Assembly: GCA_902790405.1 (NCBI GenBank)
Contig: CADARW010000029.1
Coordinates: forward strand, 1-36,584
Direction of reading: 5' to 3'
DNA length: 36,584 bases
Origin: an uncultured Bacteroidia bacterium
GTDB taxonomy: Bacteria > Bacteroidota > Bacteroidia > Bacteroidales > ML635J-15
Shown: positions 14,615 through 25,047 of the stretch, piece by piece
How the letters are laid out: every line of letters starts with the position of its first letter
How positions within the stretch are numbered: position 1 is the stretch's first letter
Notes under the pieces: model-generated
What the model saw: the letters and a program-made list of their open reading frames with translations, nothing else
Databases searched by the model: none
What the model was told of the DNA's origin: nothing
Program-made: the position numbers and the translations under genes

Positions 14615-16540
14615 ATGAGCAAGATTATAGGCATAGACTTAGGAACCACCAATTCATGTGTGGCAGTAATGGAAGGCGGAGAACCTGTTGTTATCACCAA
14701 CAGCGAAGGTCATAGGACCACCCCTTCAATCGTAGGATTTTTGAAAGACGGCGAACGTAAGGTCGGCGACCCTGCAAAGCGTCAGGCTATCACAAACCCG
14801 TTGAACACTGTTTTCTCAATCAAGCGTTTCATGGGCGAAAGATACGACAACGTAACCAAGGAAATCGAACGCGTTCCTTACGAAGTTGTTCGTGGCGACA
14901 ACAACACTCCGCGTGTTAAGATTGGCGACCGCAACTACACTCCGCAGGAAATTTCGGCAATCATACTCCAGAAGATGAAGAAGACCGCTGAAGAATACCT
15001 TGGCGAAGATGTAACCGAAGCTGTTATCACTGTTCCTGCATACTTCAGCGACTCACAGCGTCAGGCAACCAAGGAAGCTGGCGAAATCGCAGGCTTGAAG
15101 GTAAAACGTATCATCAACGAGCCTACAGCAGCAGCTTTGGCATACGGCCTTGACAAGAAGAACAAGGATATGAAGGTTGCAGTATTCGACCTCGGCGGCG
15201 GTACATTCGATATTTCAATCCTTGAACTCGGCGACGGCGTTTTCGAAGTTAAATCGACCAACGGCGATACCCACCTCGGCGGTGATGATTTCGACCACGT
15301 TATCATCGAATGGCTGGCAGACGAATTCCAGAAGGAAAACGGCGTTGACCTCCGCAAGGACTCTATCGCACTCCAGCGTCTGAAAGAGGCTGCAGAAAAG
15401 GCAAAGATTGAATTGTCGTCATCGACATCTTCGGAAATCAACCTGCCGTACATCATGCCGGTTGACGGTGTTCCAAAGCACTTGGTAAAGACCTTGACCC
15501 GTTCGCAGTTCGAGCAGTTGGCCGACCGTCTTATCAACGCAACAATCGCTCCTTGCCAGCAGGCATTGAAGGATTCGGGATTCTCGGCATCGGATATTGA
15601 CGAAGTTCTGTTGGTCGGCGGTTCAACCCGTATCCCGGCAGTTCAGGAAAAGGTAAAGCAGTTCTTCGGCAAGACTCCGTCGAAGGGCGTTAACCCCGAC
15701 GAAGTTGTAGCTGTTGGTGCTGCAATCCAGGGCGGTGTCCTCACAGGTGATGTTACCGATGTATTGCTTCTTGATGTTACCCCGTTGTCACTCGGTATCG
15801 AGACTTTGGGTGGCGTAATGACAAAGCTCATCGAATCGAACACCACAATACCTTGCAAGAAGCAGGAAGTGTTCTCGACCGCAGCCGACAACCAGCCTTC
15901 AGTCGAAATCCACGTATTGCAGGGCGAACGTTCGATGGCAAGCGACAACAAGACCATAGGTCGTTTCCACCTCGACGGCATTCCAGCAGCACCGCGTGGC
16001 GTTCCGCAGATTGAAGTAACCTTCGACATCGATGCAAACGGTATCTTGAAGGTTTCGGCAAAGGACAAGGGCACAGGCAAGGAACAGAGCATCCGTATCG
16101 AAGCTTCATCGGGACTTTCTGATGACGAAATCAAGCGTATGAAGGCCGAAGCCGAAGCCAATGCAAACGCCGACAAGGCTGCAAAGGAAAGAATCGACAA
16201 GATCAACCAGGCCGACTCGATGATATTCCAGACCGAAAAGCAGCTCAAGGAGTTGGGCGACAAGATTCCAGCCGACAAGAAGGCTCCTATCGAAAGCGCT
16301 TTGAACAACCTGAAGGAAGCCCACAAGAGCCAGGATGTCGCTGCAATCGACAAGGCAATGGAAGCATTGAACAACGCATTCCACGCAGCATCGGAAGACA
16401 TGTACAAGAACGCAGGTGCCGGTGCAGGTCAGCAGCAGGCTAACCCCAACATGGGAGGACAGCAGCAGCAGTCGTCGGGAAGCTCATCAAGCAACAACAA
16501 CGACGAAGTAACGGATGTGGACTTCGAGGAAGTCAAGTAA
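14615..16540 (+). CDS. dnaK: Chaperone DnaK (Hsp70)
   Basis: A protein of 641 residues, the usual DnaK length. The ATPase domain opens with [18 protein letters not shown] and contains [17 protein letters not shown] and [17 protein letters not shown]. The linker [19 protein letters not shown] leads into the substrate-binding domain, and the tail ends with a Gln/Ser/Asn-rich stretch and the conserved [11 protein letters not shown]. It folds proteins together with DnaJ and GrpE, neither of which is here. A sigma-54 type promoter candidate lies upstream and a GAAA-loop terminator downstream. The last part of the gene has a diverged copy at 27122-27189, at the far end of the accessory island. Confidence 0.98.
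16495..16518 (+). repeat. Left copy of the dnaK-end direct repeat
   Basis: 24 bases inside the dnaK tail, exactly identical to 27150-27173. Weaker similarity extends on both sides (16461-16540 against 27122-27189). The pair brackets the accessory island. Confidence 0.75.
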
Positions 16541-16565
16541 CAGACTGAAATTCAAACAAATACTG

Positions 16566-16594
16566 AAGCGTAGCCGAAAGGTTACGCTTTTTTT
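16566..16594 (+). terminator. dnaK terminator
   Basis: A 10-bp stem (16566-16575 with 16580-16589, one G-T pair) with a GAAA tetraloop, followed by T residues. Confidence 0.92.
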
Positions 16595-16657
16595 GTACTT
16601 TCTTATTGCTTCTGCAAAAAATTCTATCCCAATTAAATAACATTAGTGGGAAAAATA

Positions 16658-16665
16658 TATCTTTG
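16658..16665 (+). promoter_or_regulatory. Promoter -7 box for the SEFIR gene
   Basis: TATCTTTG, 24 bases before the start codon, matching the host promoter consensus. Confidence 0.55.
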
Positions 16666-16689
16666 TAACGTTCTAAAAGTTATAATAAT

Positions 16690-17982
16690 ATGGCTAAAAA
16701 TTTATGTAAAGAAAAGTTTATCAATACGCCAAATAAAGATACTGATAGTAAAGAACTCAATGGCAAAAGAACAGGAAAATCCCTAACGGTATTTATTTCT
16801 TACTCATGGGATAGCAAAGACCATAAAAAATGGGTGAAAAAATTGGCTGATGATTTACAAAAGCTGGGAGTAGAAGCGTTATTGGATCAATACCAACTGG
16901 CAGGCACACCATTAAATACATTTATGAATGATGGTATAAATATGGCAGACAAAGTATTAATCATAGGAACTCCAGAATACAAAAACAAAGCTGAATCTCA
17001 TAAAGGTGGAACAAATACTGAGGATCAAATTATTAATATCCACATCACTAGGAATTATAACGATCCTAAATTTATCCCTATTTTGCGTAGTGGAACTTTC
17101 GAAACATCATTTACAGATTTGGTTGGGAATAGAAAAGGATTTGATTTTACAGATGATTTATTATATAATGATACACTAGAAGATTTGTTTCAAAATTTAT
17201 CAAGTAGAAACAATTCTACAAGGAAAAAACTAACGTCATCGTCTCAAGAAACATATCAAAAAAATCGCCACAAACTAAGAGATCTGTTCGTTTCGATTTA
17301 TATTCCATACTTCACTAATTTGTTTAATAAACTTGAAATTAGCAACTATAAATATTGGTCTTATATGATTGCCGTCTCAGGAGAAATGGAGATTTCATAT
17401 AAAAAATATTTCGAATTAAAAGATTTTATTGATTTTTGCGATAGTTGCCAAAATCATACAGAGTTTAAAGAGTATTACAACCTAACCATGTGCTTACAAG
17501 AGGTTCTAAAAGACATGTTCAAAATATTTGATTTACATTCTGTTATGATAGGCAAAGAAGGATTTAGATATCATAAATATTACAAGGATCATCCATGGGA
17601 TCCAGAACTAAACCCAATTGAAGAAAAAGAATATGAGGATGAAATATTGCTTATGGGAGATTTAGTCTTTGAATTTACAAGGATAGCAAATTTACTTCTT
17701 GAAAGAATTAGAATCTATGAGCCTAGCTTTATGGCTCAATACGGCATATTAACAATTAAGGATTCGCCTAATCCCAAATCGCAAATTGTTTATAAACCAC
17801 AAGAAAAATCCGATTCCCCATATCCTGGGCTTCTGCCATTTTTAAACAAAAAAATGACACGAACACATCACTATAAAGAAGTGGATTTGTATAATTCATT
17901 AAAAATGAAATTAAATCTTTCTGACATTGAATATGTTCATAATAATGATCAAATAAATAGTCGACAAAAAAAAAATTATTGA
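16690..17982 (+). CDS. SEFIR/TIR-domain protein, truncated by a frameshift
   Basis: A protein of 430 residues as read. Residues about 31-135 form a SEFIR/TIR-type domain: SLTVFISYSWDSKDHKKWV, then LGVEALLDQYQL, MADKVLIIGTPEYKNKA and FIPIL. Bacterial SEFIR and TIR proteins often act in anti-phage defence, signalling or degrading NAD; catalytic activity cannot be judged here. The remaining ~290 residues are helical and unrecognised. At 17966-17975 a run of ten A residues shifts the frame and the protein ends at TGA 17980-17982. With nine A residues it would continue into a winged-helix domain ending at 18139. AT-rich, unlike dnaK. It has its own promoter box, so it is not in one operon with the methylase. 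Confidence 0.85.
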   Translation: MAKNLCKEKFINTPNKDTDSKELNGKRTGKSLTVFISYSWDSKDHKKWVKKLADDLQKLGVEALLDQYQLAGTPLNTFMNDGINMADKVLIIGTPEYKNKAESHKGGTNTEDQIINIHITRNYNDPKFIPILRSGTFETSFTDLVGNRKGFDFTDDLLYNDTLEDLFQNLSSRNNSTRKKLTSSSQETYQKNRHKLRDLFVSIYIPYFTNLFNKLEISNYKYWSYMIAVSGEMEISYKKYFELKDFIDFCDSCQNHTEFKEYYNLTMCLQEVLKDMFKIFDLHSVMIGKEGFRYHKYYKDHPWDPELNPIEEKEYEDEILLMGDLVFEFTRIANLLLERIRIYEPSFMAQYGILTIKDSPNPKSQIVYKPQEKSDSPYPGLLPFLNKKMTRTHHYKEVDLYNSLKMKLNLSDIEYVHNNDQINSRQKKNY

Positions 17983-18139
17983 CCTTATTGCATCAAATTC
18001 CCAAATTAAAATTACCCAATTAGCCATTAATCTAAATGTTTCAACAAATACCATACGAAGAGATTTGCAAACACTGCAGAATAGAAAAATGATTGCGCGT
18101 ACTGGCAGTCTTAGAAATTGTCATTGGGAAGTATTGTAA
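17974..18139 (+). other. Out-of-frame winged-helix tail of the SEFIR protein
   Basis: Read one base on from the SEFIR frame, about 55 codons follow without a stop: KKIIDLIASNSQ, then ITQLAINLNVSTNTIRRDL, and the ending TGSLRNCHWEVL before TAA 18137-18139. This is a DeoR-like helix-turn-helix followed by the GS...W wing often found at the end of defence and AAA proteins. It has no start codon of its own nearby. It is best read as the true C-terminus of the SEFIR protein, reached by slippage on the ten-A run or separated by a mutation or sequencing error. Confidence 0.75.
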
Positions 18140-18213
18140 CATATACCTGGTTCATAACCCAACATCATGCGAATGAAAATCAGCTGGAGACCCCCAAAAA
18201 ACAAATCTGTGAC

Positions 18214-18249
18214 AAAGGTGCATATTATATTATTAGTGTGCACCTTTTT
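18214..18249 (+). terminator. Rho-independent terminator
   Basis: The arms AAAGGTGCA (18214-18222) and TGCACCTTT (18239-18247) are followed by T residues. It lies between the SEFIR gene and the methylase operon and shows that they are separate transcripts. Confidence 0.85.
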
Positions 18250-18321
18250 GTTGCATTTTGCGCCCCATCTTTTTGTTCAAAAAATACTCACATGCAAACA
18301 TAAAAACTAAAGATTAATTCT

Positions 18322-18329
18322 TATTTTTG
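18322..18329 (+). promoter_or_regulatory. Promoter -7 box of the methylase-HerA-NurA operon
   Basis: TATTTTTG, 25 bases before the methylase start. Confidence 0.5.
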
Positions 18330-18353
18330 TGCCGATATCGAATTAAACAATAA

Positions 18354-19241
18354 ATGGGACAGGTTTGTAATTACTCACCATTAAGATATCCTGGAGGCAA
18401 GTCTAGGTTATATGATTTAGTCAATGCGTTAATTTCTCAATATGGTGAATCTGTTAATACATATGTTGAACCTTTTGTTGGAGGTGGTGCAATTGCTTTA
18501 GGATTAATTATAAATCACAAAGTAGAAAAAATAATCATTAATGATATTAATGTCGGCGTATATTCATTCTGGAATTCAGTTTGCAACGACACAGAAAACT
18601 TATTGCGACTGATAAGAGAAACCAATATTAACATTAATAGCTTTGATACTCAAAAAAACATTTACAATAACGAAACAGAAGCTTCTTTAGAATTAGGTTT
18701 CGCTACTTTTTTTCTAAACAGAACCAGTTATTCAGGAGTGTTAGGAGCTGGTCCTATTGGTGGATATAAACAAACTGGTAACTTTTTGCTAGACGCTAGA
18801 TATAATCGTAATGATTTAATAAAAAAAATAGAACGCATTGCTCAATACAAATCAAAGATTGAAATACATAATTTAGACATACTAGACTTTATAAAGAAAA
18901 TAGAAAACCGACGAAAAAATATCTTTACATATTTTGATCCCCCATATTTTGTAAAAGGGAAAGCCCTTTATACAAATTTCCTTAGCAAAGAAGATCACCA
19001 AAAAATATATAGTAAAATAAAAAGGATAAAAACACCATGGGTGATTACTTATGATAATGTTAAAGATATTTCAGACATATATAAAGATTACATTCAATAT
19101 GAATTTAGTTTATCATATACTGTAAATCCGAAATCTTGTAGAAAGGCGACAGAACTATTAATTACTAGTGATGTCAACAAACTTAATTCTATTAATGAAG
19201 ATGTATACAAACGAATTGATTTAAAGGAAAAAAAGATATAA
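18354..19241 (+). CDS. Dam-type (D12 class) adenine-N6 DNA methyltransferase
   Basis: A protein of 295 residues. SPLRYPGGKSRL near the N-terminus and VEPFVGGGAIALGL bind S-adenosylmethionine; TYFDPPYFVKG is the catalytic DPPY motif; NRTSYSGVLGAGPIGG is a typical D12-class segment between them. It methylates adenine in a short DNA target that cannot be read from the sequence. No partner restriction endonuclease of a known type is adjacent. Instead HerA-like and NurA-like genes follow at 1 base distance and by overlap, so the methylase probably marks self DNA for those two. The gene is strongly AT-rich, suggesting horizontal origin. Confidence 0.93.
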   Translation: MGQVCNYSPLRYPGGKSRLYDLVNALISQYGESVNTYVEPFVGGGAIALGLIINHKVEKIIINDINVGVYSFWNSVCNDTENLLRLIRETNININSFDTQKNIYNNETEASLELGFATFFLNRTSYSGVLGAGPIGGYKQTGNFLLDARYNRNDLIKKIERIAQYKSKIEIHNLDILDFIKKIENRRKNIFTYFDPPYFVKGKALYTNFLSKEDHQKIYSKIKRIKTPWVITYDNVKDISDIYKDYIQYEFSLSYTVNPKSCRKATELLITSDVNKLNSINEDVYKRIDLKEKKI

Positions 19242-19242
19242 T

Positions 19243-21249
19243 ATGCAAAACATTGTAAATAAAGTCACTTCAGATTCAGATAAGTTAGTTTCATTGATTC
19301 AGACAGAAAACCATGTCGGCTGGATTTATTCAATAGATTACGAAAATGCCCTTGTGCTTACCAATGATGCGTGGAAACAGAAAGTTAACGGTGTTTCTCA
19401 GAATGCATTTTTGATAGCCACGGCGATTGAACCTAATAAATATAATGAAGTTGACGAATTTGACCGCGAGGTAATCCTTTTAAGGGTAAACGGATCTTGT
19501 AAACTTCCGCAAGATGATGATAATATTCGCACAAAACTTGATTCTCTACAAAATAAGACTGCAACTTATACTGCCGAGCAACCTGATGCACTAACCCAAA
19601 ACATATTGCAATACAGCGGTTTGCAATGTAGGGTTTTAGGAACATTCTATATGAAGAATCAAGAGTTGCAATTAGGTTCCGACATAGAAAACTTTTCGTC
19701 TTCACTCACACAGGCAGTATATTTACCCAAGCGTGATGCTCTAAAGACTATTGTAAATTATGTGGATCCGATTCGAAAGAACAAATCCGCAGAAGATTTC
19801 AGGAATATGGGAATTAATCAGAGTGTCGAACCTTTTGAAATAGGGACAATTAGATATACTTCATCAGATAGATTACAAAGGAAAGAGGACCTCGACAAAG
19901 TACCTGTTTCTATTCAACCTGCCGACTTTCTTGCGCGGCGTACTGCCGTTTTGGGTATGACAAGAACAGGAAAGTCAAACATGGTAAAACAGACTATTTC
20001 TGTTGTAAAAGACGTCTCCCGAAAAGTTAAGTTACCAATAGGTCAGTTAATTTTTGATATTAATGGTGAATATGCGAATGCCAACAATCAGGATAATGGT
20101 TCTATTTCCGATATTTTTCAAGATGAATGCATTCGTTATAGAATGATGAAAACTGATGGATTTGAATCACTGCTTACTAATTTTTATGAACAAATAAATG
20201 ATGGATTTCAAATTATTTCTGAAATAGTTAAAGAAGAAAAAACTAGTTCTGCTCAAGACATTATAACTTTTTTGAATGGTTTTTCCTGTGACGAACCAGA
20301 CGAAATTAATCAGAAAAAAAGATATAAAGTTACAATTGCCTTGTATAAAGCTCTGTTATACAAAGCTGGCTTTAAAGTAAAAGGTGATGAAAAAATATAT
20401 TTTGAAGCCAATAAAGACATAATTGAGATAGTCAAAAAAGATCCATCTAAAGGTTTGTCTATTAAAGAAACCTGCGAATGGTTTTCTTCATTACGAGATA
20501 ATGCTGTTTATATGGCAGAAGACGAGAACAATGGCAAAAAACAAAACGAAACAAAGAAACTCTGGCATGAGATGTTAAAATCTTCATCTGGAAAACCATG
20601 GCTTGATGAAGTATGTGTTGCAATGCTTAATATGATTGCGCAAAAGAATTCATCAAACGTTCCAATGTATGGCTATAAATGTCTTATTTCATCCACAGCA
20701 TATCATACAGCAGAGAGAAAATCTCCCGTTTCAAAAGAGATATATGATTTTCTTGTTCAAGGGAAAATTGTAATTTTAGATTTGTCTGTTGGTATCGCAA
20801 CAATGCGTGAAAAAATTAGTAAAGATTTAGCAAAATTCATTTTTACTTCTTCTATGAATATTTTCACTAAAGGAGAACAACCTCCTTTTATAATGATTTA
20901 CATAGAAGAAGCCCATAATTTAATTGGGAAAGGAATGCCTCTAACAGACACATGGCCAAGAATTGCTAAAGAAGGAGCTAAATATAAAATAGGACTTGTT
21001 TATGCGACGCAAGAGGTATCCTCTGTTCATCCTAACATTTTAAGCAATACTGAAAATTGGTTTGTTTCTCATTTGAATAGCGAAAATGAAATTCGCGAAT
21101 TAGATAAATTCTACGATTTTGCAGATTTTCACAAATCTTTACTGCGTGCGCAAGACGTTGGTTTTACAAGAGTAAAGACACTTTCAAGTTCCTTCGTTGT
21201 TCCTGTTCAAATTAATAAGTTTAATCCAGAAGAATGGAGGAATAAGTAA
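19243..21249 (+). CDS. HerA-like hexameric DNA translocase ATPase
   Basis: A protein of 668 residues. The N-terminal ~200 residues look like the beta-barrel domain of HerA/FtsK-type motors. The Walker A motif is GMTRTGKS (about 238-245), followed after one strand by LIFDINGEYAN, and Walker B is FIMIYIEEAHN (about 549-559) with a late segment KIGLVYATQEVSSVHPNIL typical of HerA (DUF87). HerA motors pump DNA and, with the nuclease NurA, resect DNA ends in archaea. In bacteria HerA is also paired with SIR2 or DUF4297 nucleases in phage defence. The start is one base after the methylase stop, and the stop overlaps the NurA start (TAATG). Confidence 0.92.
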   Translation: MQNIVNKVTSDSDKLVSLIQTENHVGWIYSIDYENALVLTNDAWKQKVNGVSQNAFLIATAIEPNKYNEVDEFDREVILLRVNGSCKLPQDDDNIRTKLDSLQNKTATYTAEQPDALTQNILQYSGLQCRVLGTFYMKNQELQLGSDIENFSSSLTQAVYLPKRDALKTIVNYVDPIRKNKSAEDFRNMGINQSVEPFEIGTIRYTSSDRLQRKEDLDKVPVSIQPADFLARRTAVLGMTRTGKSNMVKQTISVVKDVSRKVKLPIGQLIFDINGEYANANNQDNGSISDIFQDECIRYRMMKTDGFESLLTNFYEQINDGFQIISEIVKEEKTSSAQDIITFLNGFSCDEPDEINQKKRYKVTIALYKALLYKAGFKVKGDEKIYFEANKDIIEIVKKDPSKGLSIKETCEWFSSLRDNAVYMAEDENNGKKQNETKKLWHEMLKSSSGKPWLDEVCVAMLNMIAQKNSSNVPMYGYKCLISSTAYHTAERKSPVSKEIYDFLVQGKIVILDLSVGIATMREKISKDLAKFIFTSSMNIFTKGEQPPFIMIYIEEAHNLIGKGMPLTDTWPRIAKEGAKYKIGLVYATQEVSSVHPNILSNTENWFVSHLNSENEIRELDKFYDFADFHKSLLRAQDVGFTRVKTLSSSFVVPVQINKFNPEEWRNK

Positions 21250-22520
21250 TGCCGTACCAGAACGAATTCGCAGATAAGACTTCGCACATTGACATTGTTC
21301 AAAACCCCGATGTTGAAAAGTTTTTAGAAAAATGTCATAAAATAGAAGACTTCAATGGTGAAGATATATCATCGGCAGGACAACAATTCTCGCCGCCTAT
21401 AAATAACTGTTTCCACAAACCTGATAATATCATTTCAATCGATGGCAGTTTCTATGAAGCAAGTAGAAAAAAAGAATACCCTAGCCAAAAAATTGGGTTT
21501 ATTAAAGTCGGTGTAATCTTATTACAAGGGAAATCTTTATCTGCAATTCAAGGTGGTTCAAAATTTGTTGACCCTTATGCAGTTGCAAAAATCAAGGAAA
21601 ATAATGAAGCTTATTCATTCGTGCTACCAAGTACAAATATAGTATATGATGACTGCGAAGATGTTCAAGAAAGTTTTAGAAGGGCATTAGAAGAACAATT
21701 TGACAATTTGCGAGATAAAGCCGACGACCCCAATACTAGTTTGAAAACAACACTTTTCAAAATGGCGTCATATCTTGACGGTTGCGATGCCAATAGAGTT
21801 GTATTATCAAAGTGTCCTTGCTGCAAAGCAACTGACAATATATACATCTACAAAGATGACGAAGCCCCTAAATGTCCTCATTGCGGGAAACGATTGTATT
21901 TAACTGACATATTGAGAGTTTGGGAACAAGTTGCCGATGTAACATCCAATCAAAGCGCATTGACAAGAACAATGAATATTGTTGAACGGCTTTTGGCTAT
22001 TCATTATATTAGGTCAATTGTTGAATCATTGAAAGAATCGTATGCAAATACTTTAGAGAATCTATGCTTTTTCATAGATGGACCATTGGCGGTATTTGGC
22101 GAGCCAGCAAAGTTCCACGCATGCTTTATGAAATACTTGCATGAGTTGAATCAGACTATGCGCAGTCTTAATAAATCTGACATTCTGATGATCGGGATTC
22201 AAAAATCTGGCGCTGTTAATGATTACCTCAATTTGATAAAAGATTACATCAGAAACGGCGAAGTTTATTGTTTGTCTGATGAAATCAGGAATAAATATGT
22301 AACATTTAGTAAAAACGCCGCAAGTGACACCTTTGGAAAGGAAACATATTTTGGACAAGATTTTTTGTACAAAAATAAGAAAGGTAATGTATTTGTATTC
22401 AATGTACCATATCCATTTGAAGAGAAATCAAAAGTTGCGAATTTTAAAATCGAGAAATCCAATATAGCAAATTACAAAAACATCAAAATATATACAGACT
22501 TATTGGATGATCAGTTTTAG
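21249..22520 (+). CDS. NurA-domain nuclease with zinc ribbon
   Basis: A protein of 423 residues. The NurA core is split: the first acidic motif is IISIDGSFYEASR (Asp65), the second FFIDGPLAVFG (Asp277), and a late segment has MIGIQKSGAVNDYL. These Asp residues bind Mn ions in NurA nucleases, which have an RNase H-like fold and act on DNA ends. Between the two motifs lies a zinc-ribbon insert with Cys189/Cys192 and Cys209/Cys212 (CPCC...CPHC), not found in the short archaeal NurA. The start overlaps the HerA stop by one base, so the motor and nuclease are translationally coupled and probably form one complex. It closes the operon. Confidence 0.9.
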   Translation: MPYQNEFADKTSHIDIVQNPDVEKFLEKCHKIEDFNGEDISSAGQQFSPPINNCFHKPDNIISIDGSFYEASRKKEYPSQKIGFIKVGVILLQGKSLSAIQGGSKFVDPYAVAKIKENNEAYSFVLPSTNIVYDDCEDVQESFRRALEEQFDNLRDKADDPNTSLKTTLFKMASYLDGCDANRVVLSKCPCCKATDNIYIYKDDEAPKCPHCGKRLYLTDILRVWEQVADVTSNQSALTRTMNIVERLLAIHYIRSIVESLKESYANTLENLCFFIDGPLAVFGEPAKFHACFMKYLHELNQTMRSLNKSDILMIGIQKSGAVNDYLNLIKDYIRNGEVYCLSDEIRNKYVTFSKNAASDTFGKETYFGQDFLYKNKKGNVFVFNVPYPFEEKSKVANFKIEKSNIANYKNIKIYTDLLDDQF

Positions 22521-22849
22521 CGCACAAATATACTGCAATAAGTTTGGCTCCAGGAAGCAAAGTATTAGATTTGCTCTCAAAAAGCAAAATTGTGTAATAA
22601 AAGCAGTTCCCTTGCTCTGCTGAATTTACTGGCTTACCTGTCGTGTCGGATTTGCAACCTTTAGCTCGTTGCCTTTGGCAACAACCCGACACGCTTGAAT
22701 ATCAGCATCTGTAATACACAAATAATTCTCCCGACAAGCACAGGATAAGCAGTGCCCTATGGTGCGAAATACCACGAATTAAATTCTAATAATAATTTTG
22801 GCGCGTTACTAATGTAAAAAACATTATATTTGCACCAAAATTATTTAAT
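22521..22849. other. Gap with dispersed repeat and AbiE promoter
   Basis: No ORF is supported in these 329 bases. An outer stem CGTGTCGG (22642-22649) / CCGACACG (22686-22693) encloses an inner stem GTTGCC/GGCAAC (22668-22673 with 22677-22682) and an inverted copy of the 12-mer GAGCTAAAGGTT (22656-22667). This looks like a dispersed repeat element. A TATATTTG promoter box for the AbiE operon lies at 22825-22832. Confidence 0.6.
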
Positions 22850-23653
22850 ATGACTTTACTGAAATGGATAAGGAATAGAGCAGTACATGGAATGCAAGCA
22901 TTCTCTATCGAAGAGATAAGGAGAGCAGGCGTGTGTACTTCTGAACAAATCTTGCAGAATGAACTATCTCTGCTTTCCGCAAACAAGACTATTGCTAATG
23001 TGTATCGCGGATTCTATGTCATTTATCCTACCCATTATGTCCTTCGTGGATCTATACCAGCAACATACTACATTGACCAACTTATGAATTATATGGGTAA
23101 GCCATATTATATAAGTATGCTCAGCGCTGCTGAATTGCTGGGAGCTGCGCACCAACGGCCACAGAATTTTTCTGTGATGACTGTTTTTCCAAAGCGAAGA
23201 GTGGTTTCGAAACGAAATGTGACCGTTGAATGGTTCTACAGGGAAAGAATACCAGAGGAGTGCATCATTACAAAAAATACGGAAACAGGAACCATACGCA
23301 TTTCAAATGCCCTGCTTACTGCAGTTGACATCATACAGTACCAGCAACACATAGGAGGCCTTTCGCGTGCAACTACAATTCTTGAAGAATTGACTGAACA
23401 AATTGACATTACAAAGGATTTCAAGCTGCTGGCTCCGTATGTAAAAACCGTTGTGTGGCAGCGTTTGGGATATTTGCTAGAGAACATAGTCGGAGAAAAG
23501 GAACTCTCCGACAAACTGTACAATCAATTGCAAACATCTGCAATCCATATTCAGTATGCACCTCTTAGCACAACGGCAGACAATGAGTACAAGGAACGCG
23601 ACATCCGCTGGAAATTAAACATAAACACAGATATAGAATCAGAGGAACTATGA
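22850..23653 (+). CDS. AbiEi-type antitoxin of a type IV toxin-antitoxin pair
   Basis: A protein of 267 residues. The N-terminal ~70 residues form a winged helix (SIEEIRRAGVCTSEQILQNE, then TIANVYRGFYVIYP), followed by the AbiEi domain (YISMLSAAELLGAAHQRPQNF, VEWFYRERIPEE, IRISNALLTAVDIIQYQQHIGG). AbiEi proteins bind the shared promoter to repress it and counter the AbiEii nucleotidyltransferase. The pair stops phages by abortive infection. The start codon follows a TATATTTG box by 17 bases. The stop overlaps the toxin start (ATGA), the usual layout of this system. Confidence 0.92.
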   Translation: MTLLKWIRNRAVHGMQAFSIEEIRRAGVCTSEQILQNELSLLSANKTIANVYRGFYVIYPTHYVLRGSIPATYYIDQLMNYMGKPYYISMLSAAELLGAAHQRPQNFSVMTVFPKRRVVSKRNVTVEWFYRERIPEECIITKNTETGTIRISNALLTAVDIIQYQQHIGGLSRATTILEELTEQIDITKDFKLLAPYVKTVVWQRLGYLLENIVGEKELSDKLYNQLQTSAIHIQYAPLSTTADNEYKERDIRWKLNINTDIESEEL

Positions 23654-24453
23654 TAAACAGAAACGCCATACAGCAATGGAGTGAACATGCTCCGTGGATT
23701 GAAAATGCACAAATAGAACAAGACCTGATAATATGCCGAGCTTTGGTTGCAATTTTCAGTGATGAGTTTCTTGCTTCCCAATTGGCTTTTCGCGGAGGCA
23801 CTGCACTGCACAAACTTTACTTGTCTCCACAACCACGCTACAGCGAGGACATCGACTTGGTTCAAATTAATCCAGGTCCAATTAAACCAATAATGTATAG
23901 GCTCGGAGAAGTGCTTGATTTCCTGCCTGACAGGACTACAAAACAAAAGCGGTACAATAATACGATGTATTTCCGTATGGAATCTGAAATACCACCGACG
24001 ATACCCATACGCCTGAAGATTGAAATCAACTGCTTCGAACATTTCAATGTGCTGGGACTGACAAAGATTCCGTTCTGCATTGAAAACTCATGGTTTTCTG
24101 GAGCTGCGCAAATTACTACATATCATTTCGAAGAACTTCTTGGAACAAAACTCCGTGCACTTTATCAACGCAAGAAAGGCCGTGACCTGTTTGACCTTTA
24201 CATTGCTTTGCAACAAAAAGAAACAGATGTGGACAAAGTTCTGAAATGCTACAGGGAGTATATGGAATTTGTAGTTGGCAAAGCTCCATCATACAAGCAA
24301 TACGTCAACAATATGGAAGAAAAAATGAATGACAGAGAGTTTTTAGATGACACTCACGCCCTTTTGCGACCAAACATTGAATTTAAACCAGCGGATGCAT
24401 ATAAGCAGATATTCAAAACATTCATTGACAAAATGGAAGGCAAAAGAGATTAA
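23650..24453 (+). CDS. AbiEii-type nucleotidyltransferase toxin
   Basis: A protein of 267 residues of the DUF1814/AbiEii family. LAFRGGTALHKLYL and RYSEDIDLVQ supply the GG(T/S) and DxD residues of the nucleotidyltransferase active site; GTKLRALYQRKKGRDLFDLYIAL carries the later KxxAlxxRxxxRDlfDl-like motif. Related toxins (AbiEii, MenT) transfer nucleotides to RNA targets such as tRNA ends and halt translation. It overlaps the AbiEi stop by four bases, so the two are translationally coupled. Base composition is closer to the host than that of the methylase operon. Confidence 0.93.
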   Translation: MINRNAIQQWSEHAPWIENAQIEQDLIICRALVAIFSDEFLASQLAFRGGTALHKLYLSPQPRYSEDIDLVQINPGPIKPIMYRLGEVLDFLPDRTTKQKRYNNTMYFRMESEIPPTIPIRLKIEINCFEHFNVLGLTKIPFCIENSWFSGAAQITTYHFEELLGTKLRALYQRKKGRDLFDLYIALQQKETDVDKVLKCYREYMEFVVGKAPSYKQYVNNMEEKMNDREFLDDTHALLRPNIEFKPADAYKQIFKTFIDKMEGKRD

Positions 24454-24800
24454 CAGAAACTATTAGTTACATAACCGCATTCAGCATAATAATAAAAGAT
24501 GAAGATGTCGCCTACAACACATCAACTGTTCACCAACTGTTCACCAACCTGTCTACACAAGATAAATCTTTGATAATAAATTTAAAAGAACAGCAATTAT
24601 CGACATCGGAACTTCAACTGTTCACCAACTGTTCACCTCAAAGCAAACAGCTTTTTATAAAGCAGGTCATCACTCCAAATATAGAGAATGGTATTATTGC
24701 TATGACACATCCCGAAACGCCACATCATCCACGGCAAAAATACTATCTAACAGAACTTGGATTAAAAATTCTAGAAATGCTACAAAACAACAAACAATAA
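24454..24800 (+). pseudogene. C-terminal remnant of a winged-helix (RecG/AlbA_2-like) protein
   Basis: An open frame without a good start codon runs through the AbiEii end and this stretch to TAA at 24798-24800. The last ~60 codons (FIKQVITPNIENGIIAM, then THPETPHHPRQKYYLTELG) resemble the winged-helix end of ATP-binding/AlbA_2 or RecG-like proteins, which often read IEMTIPDKPxSxNQKYRLT. Upstream it contains two blocks with the words CAACTGTTCACC repeated, coding for QLFTN twice. The ATPase and DNA-binding parts are missing, so this is likely the tail of a deleted gene. A short functional protein starting at TTG 24570 cannot be excluded. Confidence 0.45.
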
Positions 24801-25047
24801 GGTGCCAACAGAAATATGACATATCAACTAGCAAAAAAATAAAGTATTAACCAAATCCACACAACGAGTAGAAAATCTATTTAAACCAATTTATATTACC
24901 TTTGCAAAGCAACTAAGGGATAAAAACATCGGGTATGGAATCAAATTGTGCAATTGGGAACTGCACAATTTTCATATTTTGGCGGTGTAAAATTTTGTAA
25001 TGGCGGTGTAAAATTGTAATTTTGGCGGTGTAAATTTTTACTGGAAA
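24801..25047 (+). promoter_or_regulatory. Promoter region of the fic gene with direct repeats
   Basis: A TACCTTTG box lies at 24897-24904. An inverted repeat with 9-base arms (24943-24951 and 24963-24971) follows. Then come three direct copies of GGCGGTGTAAA at 24981-25035, about 22-24 bases apart, ending just before the fic start. A similar word, ATGGTGTAAATTTTCACTGG, appears after fic at about 26051-26070. These look like operator repeats lying in the leader, perhaps bound by the winged helix of the Fic protein itself. Confidence 0.6.

Follow-up and report, generated by a model that had tools for sequence, protein, structure and literature searches.

The window, a stretch of 36,584 nucleotides from an uncultured Bacteroidia bacterium (contig CADARW010000029.1), carries on its forward strand a three-gene operon at 18354-22520 that encodes a D12-class adenine methylase (MTase), a HerA motor and a NurA-fold nuclease (Table 1). 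The MTase and HerA genes are separated by 1 base, and the HerA stop codon TAA shares one base with the NurA start codon (TAATG); these boundaries, reported in a preliminary description of the locus, proved exact on re-check. Dozens of diverged loci hold these three genes together, so the arrangement is more than a chance juxtaposition.

Table 1 Features of the operon and its neighbourhood
Feature	Position	Strand	Description
dnaK	14615..16540	+	Core gene anchoring the hotspot; 99-100% identical in sister genomes, downstream content differs
bSEFIR-like (TIR-superfamily) defence gene	16690..17982	+	PADLOC bSEFIR 4.2e-45; SEFIR 4.9e-13; TIR_2 3.1e-15; neighbour, outside the system
MTase ORF	18354..19241	+	295 aa; DNA adenine methyltransferase of the D12 class and the PD-lambda-5_B family; predicted to mark self DNA
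HerA ORF	19243..21249	+	668 aa; HerA/FtsK-type hexameric DNA translocase, TdpA-like
NurA ORF	21249..22520	+	423 aa; nuclease of NurA fold, similar to TdpB; contains a zinc ribbon; C-terminal end missing in the window copy
Zinc-ribbon codons C189, C192, C209, C212 in NurA	21813..21884	+	Each Cys in 43-44/45 alignment rows
37-bp deletion scar (near 22508) and remnant of ancestral NurA C-terminus in shifted frame	22505..22600	+	From DNA alignment
AbiEi/AbiEii toxin-antitoxin pair	22850..24453	+	PF09407 1.3e-22, PF08843 1.5e-36; neighbour in the hotspot

Properties of the three proteins

The MTase matched Pfam PF02086 (E=1.7e-24), contains the motifs RYPGGK (residues 11-16), FVGGG and DPPY (195-198), and gave a full-length match to the PADLOC family PD-Lambda-5_B (5.8e-105). 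It is the sole PF02086 match in its own genome, in which no other D12 methylase was found. Since its score of 77.3 lies below the NCBIfam Dam cut-off of 114.85 bits, it is not an orthologue of the housekeeping Dam. The earlier label of a Dam-type methylase therefore holds for the D12 class but not for Dam proper, the enzyme belonging to the PD-lambda-5_B family. Judged by its class, the MTase is predicted to methylate a short motif in host DNA.

HerA matched PF01935 (E=1.1e-9), and its Walker A motif GMTRTGKSN, the EE of Walker B and the sensor glutamine Q590 are invariant across the family, in agreement with its initial reading as a HerA-like DNA motor. Among all PDB chains, TdpA was the best match of the single protein (6.9e-20) and also of the family profile (3.4e-38, with the next at 1.2e-19).

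For NurA, the Pfam NurA profile alone gave only E=0.06, a sequence comparison with TdpB returned no significant match (E about 2), and sequence profiles searched against the PDB yielded no usable match, the top ones being designed or unrelated proteins; structure prediction was thus needed. The AlphaFold2 model (pLDDT 93) resembles TdpB (Z 15.1, rmsd 4.3 over 274 residues; Foldseek 3.3e-9) and NurA structures (Z 7-10), and a full-length relative resembles TdpB with Z 19.6. Residues D65, R144, D220, D277 and K319 are conserved in the family, of which D65 and D277, both present in the window copy, are by analogy the probable catalytic residues. The cysteine pairs C189/C192 and C209/C212 are kept in most relatives and, together with the fold matches of the model, bear out the proposed NurA-like nuclease with a zinc-ribbon insert.

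The window copy of NurA lacks the conserved C-terminal ~40 residues that its relatives have, a truncation overlooked by the preliminary description. Aligned at the DNA level with the Prevotella locus L048 and the Treponema locus L047, the gene lacks 37 bp near 22508 that these relatives have, and the C-terminus was lost because this deletion shifts the frame. The last part of the former frame, LAHKYTAISLAPGSKVLDLLSKSKIV, is still readable in another frame just downstream. In the full-length relative this region forms two extra C-terminal helices. With these helices gone, the window copy may be broken, and the cassette may therefore be in decay while still marking DNA. Intact gene sets occur among the relatives, for example in Shewanella sp. 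HN-41 (L085) and in the Clostridium-type locus L113.

Conservation and genomic setting of the gene set

A scan of genome contigs with the single NurA sequence gave no match, and the loci of relatives were recovered with a HerA profile instead; five marginal hits (L005, L006, L016, L017 and L046; E about 1e-4 to 1e-3) were dropped as chance matches with no HerA beside them. They span Bacteroidota, Spirochaetota, Bacillota, Chloroflexota, Cyanobacteriota, Myxococcota and Pseudomonadota, and also include archaea and viral contigs. A DNA methylase directly adjoins HerA and NurA in 75 of the 90 loci examined, a D12 methylase lying just upstream on the same strand in 59 of the 90, and it is likewise adjacent in 19 of 23 loci within the NurA-centred sets. 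Absence of the methylase from most HerA-NurA relatives, which the preliminary description had named as the finding that would speak against its reading, is thus clearly not what was seen, and methylase and nuclease form a conserved unit, as in restriction-modification. Two loci beyond the 75 carry an N6_N4 MTase by Pfam (L037 and its homologue L038), and methylase matches more than 1 kb away or belonging to another system were not counted as adjacent (L069, L098, L115, L124 and L129). Loci without an adjacent MTase include the cyanobacterial plasmids L010-L012, L062 and L063.

The trees of the components co-vary, with a Mantel r of 0.94 for HerA-NurA and 0.85 for HerA-MTase, and contain clear MTase replacements (e.g. 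L103/L106 and L077/L079). Distinct clades carry an unrelated N4/N6-type methylase, which lies downstream in one HerA clade and upstream in another, with the D12 class found elsewhere; as the class differs between clades, the methylase is swappable, as in restriction-modification. In some relatives, in a Clostridia branch, an AlbA_2/Schlafen gene has been gained, and the putative catalytic aspartates of NurA are mostly lost there.

In the window, the cassette occupies a defence hotspot behind dnaK that in sister genomes is empty or differently filled: G007 has almost nothing at this site, G006 has AbiE alone, G002 has a DUF262-type restriction gene and G005 has a PDC-S02 gene. NurA was absent from the same-genus genomes searched. 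Besides AbiEi/AbiEii, a Fic gene also lies downstream of the cassette. The sampled flanks of HerA-NurA loci matched 175 PADLOC families, against 2 in the flanks of solo Verrucomicrobia HerA genes, and integrases occur among the flanking genes. HerA-NurA cassettes were also found on prophage, plasmid and viral contigs, being adjacent to an integrase in Vibrio prophages.

Relation to characterized systems

The preliminary description had compared the pair with HerA-NurA of archaeal end resection, but profile and structure matches place TdpAB nearer than the archaeal pair. Tdp (TdpABC) is reportedly a phosphorothioation-based defence system with TdpA as the motor and TdpB as the nuclease, in which phosphorothioation would stop or discourage TdpAB translocation. 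TdpA and TdpB (PDB 8wet, 8wfd) are the closest solved relatives of HerA and NurA here, and in both cases DNA modification is coupled to a HerA-type motor-nuclease. In contrast to Tdp, the place of the phosphorothioation enzyme is taken here by a DNA methyltransferase, which can belong to one or the other of two classes, and NurA has a zinc ribbon and shares about 13-15% identity with TdpB in the structural alignment. Membership in Tdp was rejected: the operon has no TdpC, its modification gene is the D12 methylase, and the adjoining genes are bSEFIR and AbiE. Archaeal and Deinococcus HerA-NurA share the arrangement of a motor and an RNase H-fold nuclease (structural matches of Z 7-14), but belong to other subfamilies by sequence and are mostly discussed as repair machinery, whereas the pair described here is accompanied by a DNA methylase and lies in mobile defence loci.

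PD-lambda-5 is an experimentally found phage-defence system (Vassallo et al. 2022, PMC9519451). The MTase falls in its subunit B family, but HerA and NurA stand in place of subunit A; PD-Lambda-5_A had no match in P0002 (HerA), P0003 or P0004, the next downstream genes being AbiEi/AbiEii and Fic, and the operon is therefore not PD-lambda-5. One locus (L098) holds a complete PD-lambda-5 pair beside a HerA-NurA pair. HerA-SIR2, HerA-DUF4297 and related pairs similarly join a HerA motor to an anti-phage effector and gave weak PADLOC HerA matches (5e-20), but here the effector has a NurA fold and a methylase is added, and identity with these named pairs was rejected, as was membership in MADS, for which a weak mad8-like match was the only sign. 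With type II restriction-modification the operon shares a methylase and a nuclease in one mobile unit and an exchangeable methylase; it differs in having an ATP-driven end-processing complex and no site-specific endonuclease. In line with the earlier remark that no established system has exactly this make-up, none was found in PADLOC, NCBIfam or the papers searched, although absence there does not mean that the system is unpublished.

A probable restriction-like function and its alternatives

We consider it probable that the three genes form a mobile restriction-like defence system. This reading is favoured because the MTase family already serves phage defence in PD-lambda-5, because the operon is conserved in many phyla and on viral contigs with an adjacent MTase of exchangeable class, and because the trees co-vary, the effectors are nearest to TdpA and TdpB, the window cassette lies in a hotspot and the sampled HerA-NurA loci have PADLOC-rich flanks. 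The proposal that a motor-nuclease replaces the endonuclease of a restriction-like system is accordingly the best reading of a methylase conserved beside HerA-NurA, while defence, self-marking and the stop to translocation are features that we infer. By extension from TdpAB and from archaeal and Deinococcus HerA-NurA, the HerA ring would load on DNA ends and feed duplex DNA to a NurA dimer for degradation, so that unmethylated incoming phage or plasmid DNA would be destroyed processively. Methyl marks on self DNA may stop or discourage HerA translocation, as phosphorothioation may for TdpAB. An end-loading motor leaves attack on circular plasmids or circularised phage DNA unexplained, and some HerA-NurA loci have no adjacent MTase.

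Three other explanations were weighed. HerA-NurA might process broken ends in DNA repair, with the methylase supplying a cue to strand or self, comparable to the role of Dam in mismatch repair; the pair is classically tied to end resection (PMC12977600), but the cassette is accessory and mobile, being present or absent at the hotspot and occurring on contigs of prophage, plasmid and viral origin, NurA is absent from the same-genus genomes searched, the methylase class is swapped, and a T. kodakarensis study speaks against direct end resection, which leaves repair improbable. A comparably low probability applies to a module serving mobile elements, in which the methylase would guard the element against restriction by its host, and the HerA-NurA pair would aid its recombination or exclude rival elements. 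Integrases in the flanks and next to the Vibrio prophage loci, and carriage on plasmids and viral contigs, agree with such a role, but the cassette also occurs in chromosomal hotspots beside other defence genes and HerA-NurA is kept beside unrelated MTases.

The complex might instead respond to a foreign modification, to DNA ends or to phage proteins rather than to its own methyl marks, with the methylase acting as a regulator or decoy in a type IV-like or BREX-like manner. BREX-type systems methylate DNA without classic cleavage, the PD-lambda-5 pair joins the same MTase family to an unrelated partner, and the loci lacking an adjacent MTase point the same way; swaps between unrelated MTase classes, however, are easier to reconcile with reading of the mark or protection of sites than with a specific contact between proteins, and we regard such gating as unlikely. 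Within the restriction-like reading, we tentatively suggest a more specific form, which may well not hold: an end-dependent class of restriction-modification without a site-specific endonuclease, in which methyl marks would be stop signals for the HerA ring rather than shields of cleavage sites. Unmarked linear DNA would then be digested outright, a broken host chromosome would be chewed only to the next mark, and in one branch the nuclease would have been retired in favour of an AlbA_2/Schlafen effector.

If the restriction-like reading is true, a widespread and apparently unnamed class of defence systems would couple a HerA motor-nuclease with ordinary DNA methylation, and the TdpAB-type effector would not be bound to phosphorothioation. 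It would give a testable answer to the role of many bacterial HerA-NurA pairs and a model for a motor that reads base modification, and the AlbA_2 branch would represent natural effector switching inside one defence chassis.

The operon and its nearest known system

The three open reading frames, their coordinates, the one-base gap and the TAATG overlap in the preliminary description were all confirmed exactly on the sequence.

Genes of the methylase-HerA-NurA operon in the window
Gene	Position	Features
Methylase	18354-19241	D12 class, PF02086 1.7e-24
HerA	19243-21249	PF01935 1.1e-9; 1-base gap after methylase ORF
NurA-like nuclease	21249-22520	1-base TAATG overlap with HerA ORF end

Of the proposed Dam-type methylase, the D12 class held while the score fell under the Dam cut-off. 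The protein belongs, over its whole length, to PADLOC family PD-Lambda-5_B (5.8e-105) and is the sole D12 methylase found in the source genome (93.7% complete). The NurA-like nuclease was recognized weakly by sequence (0.06), yet its AlphaFold2 model was confident (pLDDT 93, pTM 0.90) and bore out the assignment, with TdpB as top structural match (Foldseek 3.3e-9; Z 15.1, rmsd 4.3, 274 residues), followed by NurA crystal structures from Sulfolobus, Deinococcus, Thermococcus and elsewhere (Z 7-10). A full-length relative scored Z 19.6 against TdpB (316 residues) and 10-14 against canonical NurA, and the HerA family profile matched TdpA at 3.4e-38, well above every other HerA chain. Therefore, the Tdp system is the closest known counterpart of motor and nuclease alike, with TdpA for HerA and TdpB for NurA. 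In that system, phosphorothioation is said to restrain TdpAB on self DNA, whereas the window system would mark by methylation. Our literature search found no paper on a methylase-HerA-NurA system, in line with the earlier remark that no established system of exactly this make-up could be named. In one locus, L098 (3374-5653), a complete, divergently oriented PD-lambda-5 phage-defence pair (A 2.9e-133, B 2.9e-115) adjoins the HerA-NurA pair.

Conservation of the gene set and exchange of the methylase

NurA-centred searches gave 23 loci, window included, and a DNA methylase lay beside NurA/HerA in 19 of them; the other four were three related cyanobacterial plasmids and L042, where a type I R-M set comes after the locus. 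With a HerA profile, 556 relatives were detected across 84,980 species genomes and the 80 best retained; viral contigs contributed 8 loci. HerA and NurA were both present in 90 pooled loci, with a D12 methylase directly upstream on the same strand in 59, an adjoining methylase in another arrangement in 16 and a more distant one in five; because the retained 80 lie closest to the window HerA, percentages over these loci are no census, and the NurA-centred set gives the less biased figure. The automatic rule detected none in the remaining 10, two of which (L037 and L038) have an upstream N6_N4 methylase, seen by Pfam in L037 and as a homologue in L038. Thus, the methylase is present in most HerA-NurA relatives; its absence would have spoken against the restriction-like reading.

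HerA without NurA occurred in 18 loci, three cut by contig ends and 15 with a Verrucomicrobia-type solo HerA (L089, L091, L092, L094, L096, L097, L099, L102, L104, L105, L107, L110, L112, L125 and L126). These solo genes of the window-HerA family, from Verrucomicrobia and Limisphaerales, lack NurA and methylase and often lie near housekeeping genes, e.g. an aminoacyl-tRNA synthetase-like gene.

In the HerA tree (77 loci), an N4/N6-type methylase downstream of NurA was restricted to one clade and an upstream one to a second, and D12 occupied the remaining clades, in some of them shifted downstream or onto the opposite strand. Mantel comparison of distance matrices over 50 loci with upstream D12 gave r of 0.94 for HerA-NurA, 0.85 for HerA-D12 and 0.83 for NurA-D12 (permutation p 0.0005), the outliers being near-alike HerA proteins paired with very distant methylases. 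We infer a tightly co-evolving motor-nuclease with a replaceable methylase, as restriction-modification logic predicts.

Variation and possible decay of the effectors

An additional upstream AlbA_2/Schlafen-like gene (PF04326 3.2e-14, PADLOC PDC-S50 1e-24), whose proteins share a conserved E-x4-D-x-K stretch, was found in 13 loci, or 12 once the near-duplicate L059 is discounted; they are mostly from Clostridia and include L050-L054, L056, L058, L066, L076, L111 and L128. Among the 10 with full-length NurA (L076 and L128 have identical HerA), nine had lost the presumed catalytic Asp65 and/or Asp277 (replaced by N, S or A); of 67 loci without the gene, 66 kept both and the remaining one had D to E (Fisher p ~1e-9 or lower, which overstates independence because the loci are related). 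Since the substitutions vary, the loss suggests more than one event. It is natural to suppose that the arrival of the AlbA_2 effector made nuclease activity dispensable, which suggests effector switching in this branch.

Around 22508, 37 bp of the nearest relatives, Prevotella L048 and Treponema L047, are missing from the window, which shifts the NurA frame; what was the ancestral C-terminus can still be read in another frame. The two additional terminal helices of the relatives are thereby absent from the window NurA, and their C-terminal tail raises the TdpB match from Z 15.1 to 19.6. Several HerA-contacting residues of T. kodakarensis NurA lie in its C-terminal part (Arg401, Ile423, Pro441, Leu442), and the window model stops near its residue 395 in the structural alignment; loss of HerA docking is thus plausible, although the gap may be an assembly error. 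Elsewhere, an in-frame stop or frameshift interrupts HerA in L007, L051, L084 and L095 and NurA in L071, a sign of frequent decay or of assembly errors. In L045 (8047-9447), one ORF beside an intact HerA joins the first ~108 NurA residues to an N4/N6-type methylase, the nuclease core being absent, possibly through a deletion fusion.

Genomic setting and mobility

Reading from dnaK, the order is a bSEFIR gene, the cassette, AbiEi/AbiEii and a Fic-type gene. Sister genomes have 99-100% identical dnaK, yet differ behind it: dnaK reaches the Fic gene in ~250 bp in G007, and the site holds AbiE only in G006, a 588-aa DUF262/SspE-like restriction gene in G002 and a PDC-S02 gene in G005. Window positions 16550-24959 form a defence hotspot with variable contents. 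At 17966-18140, the bSEFIR ORF stops at ten consecutive A, past which a shifted frame reads on into a winged-helix-like C-terminus (KKIIDLIASNSQIKITQLAINLNVSTNTIRRDL...), possibly a frameshift or fused remnant.

Sampled flanking genes matched 175 PADLOC families at HerA-NurA loci versus 2 at solo HerA loci, a rough contrast because a single protein may hit many related models. Downstream of HerA-NurA, many Chloroflexota and other loci (L060, L063, L064, L067-L069, L071, L072) have a UvrD-type helicase gene and then a PD-(D/E)XK nuclease gene, a possible accessory module. The methylase-HerA-NurA unit also occurs on plasmids and, adjoining an integrase, in Vibrio prophages. Taken together, the set appears to be a conserved, mobile, restriction-like system that would work in a Tdp-like manner with methylation as the mark.
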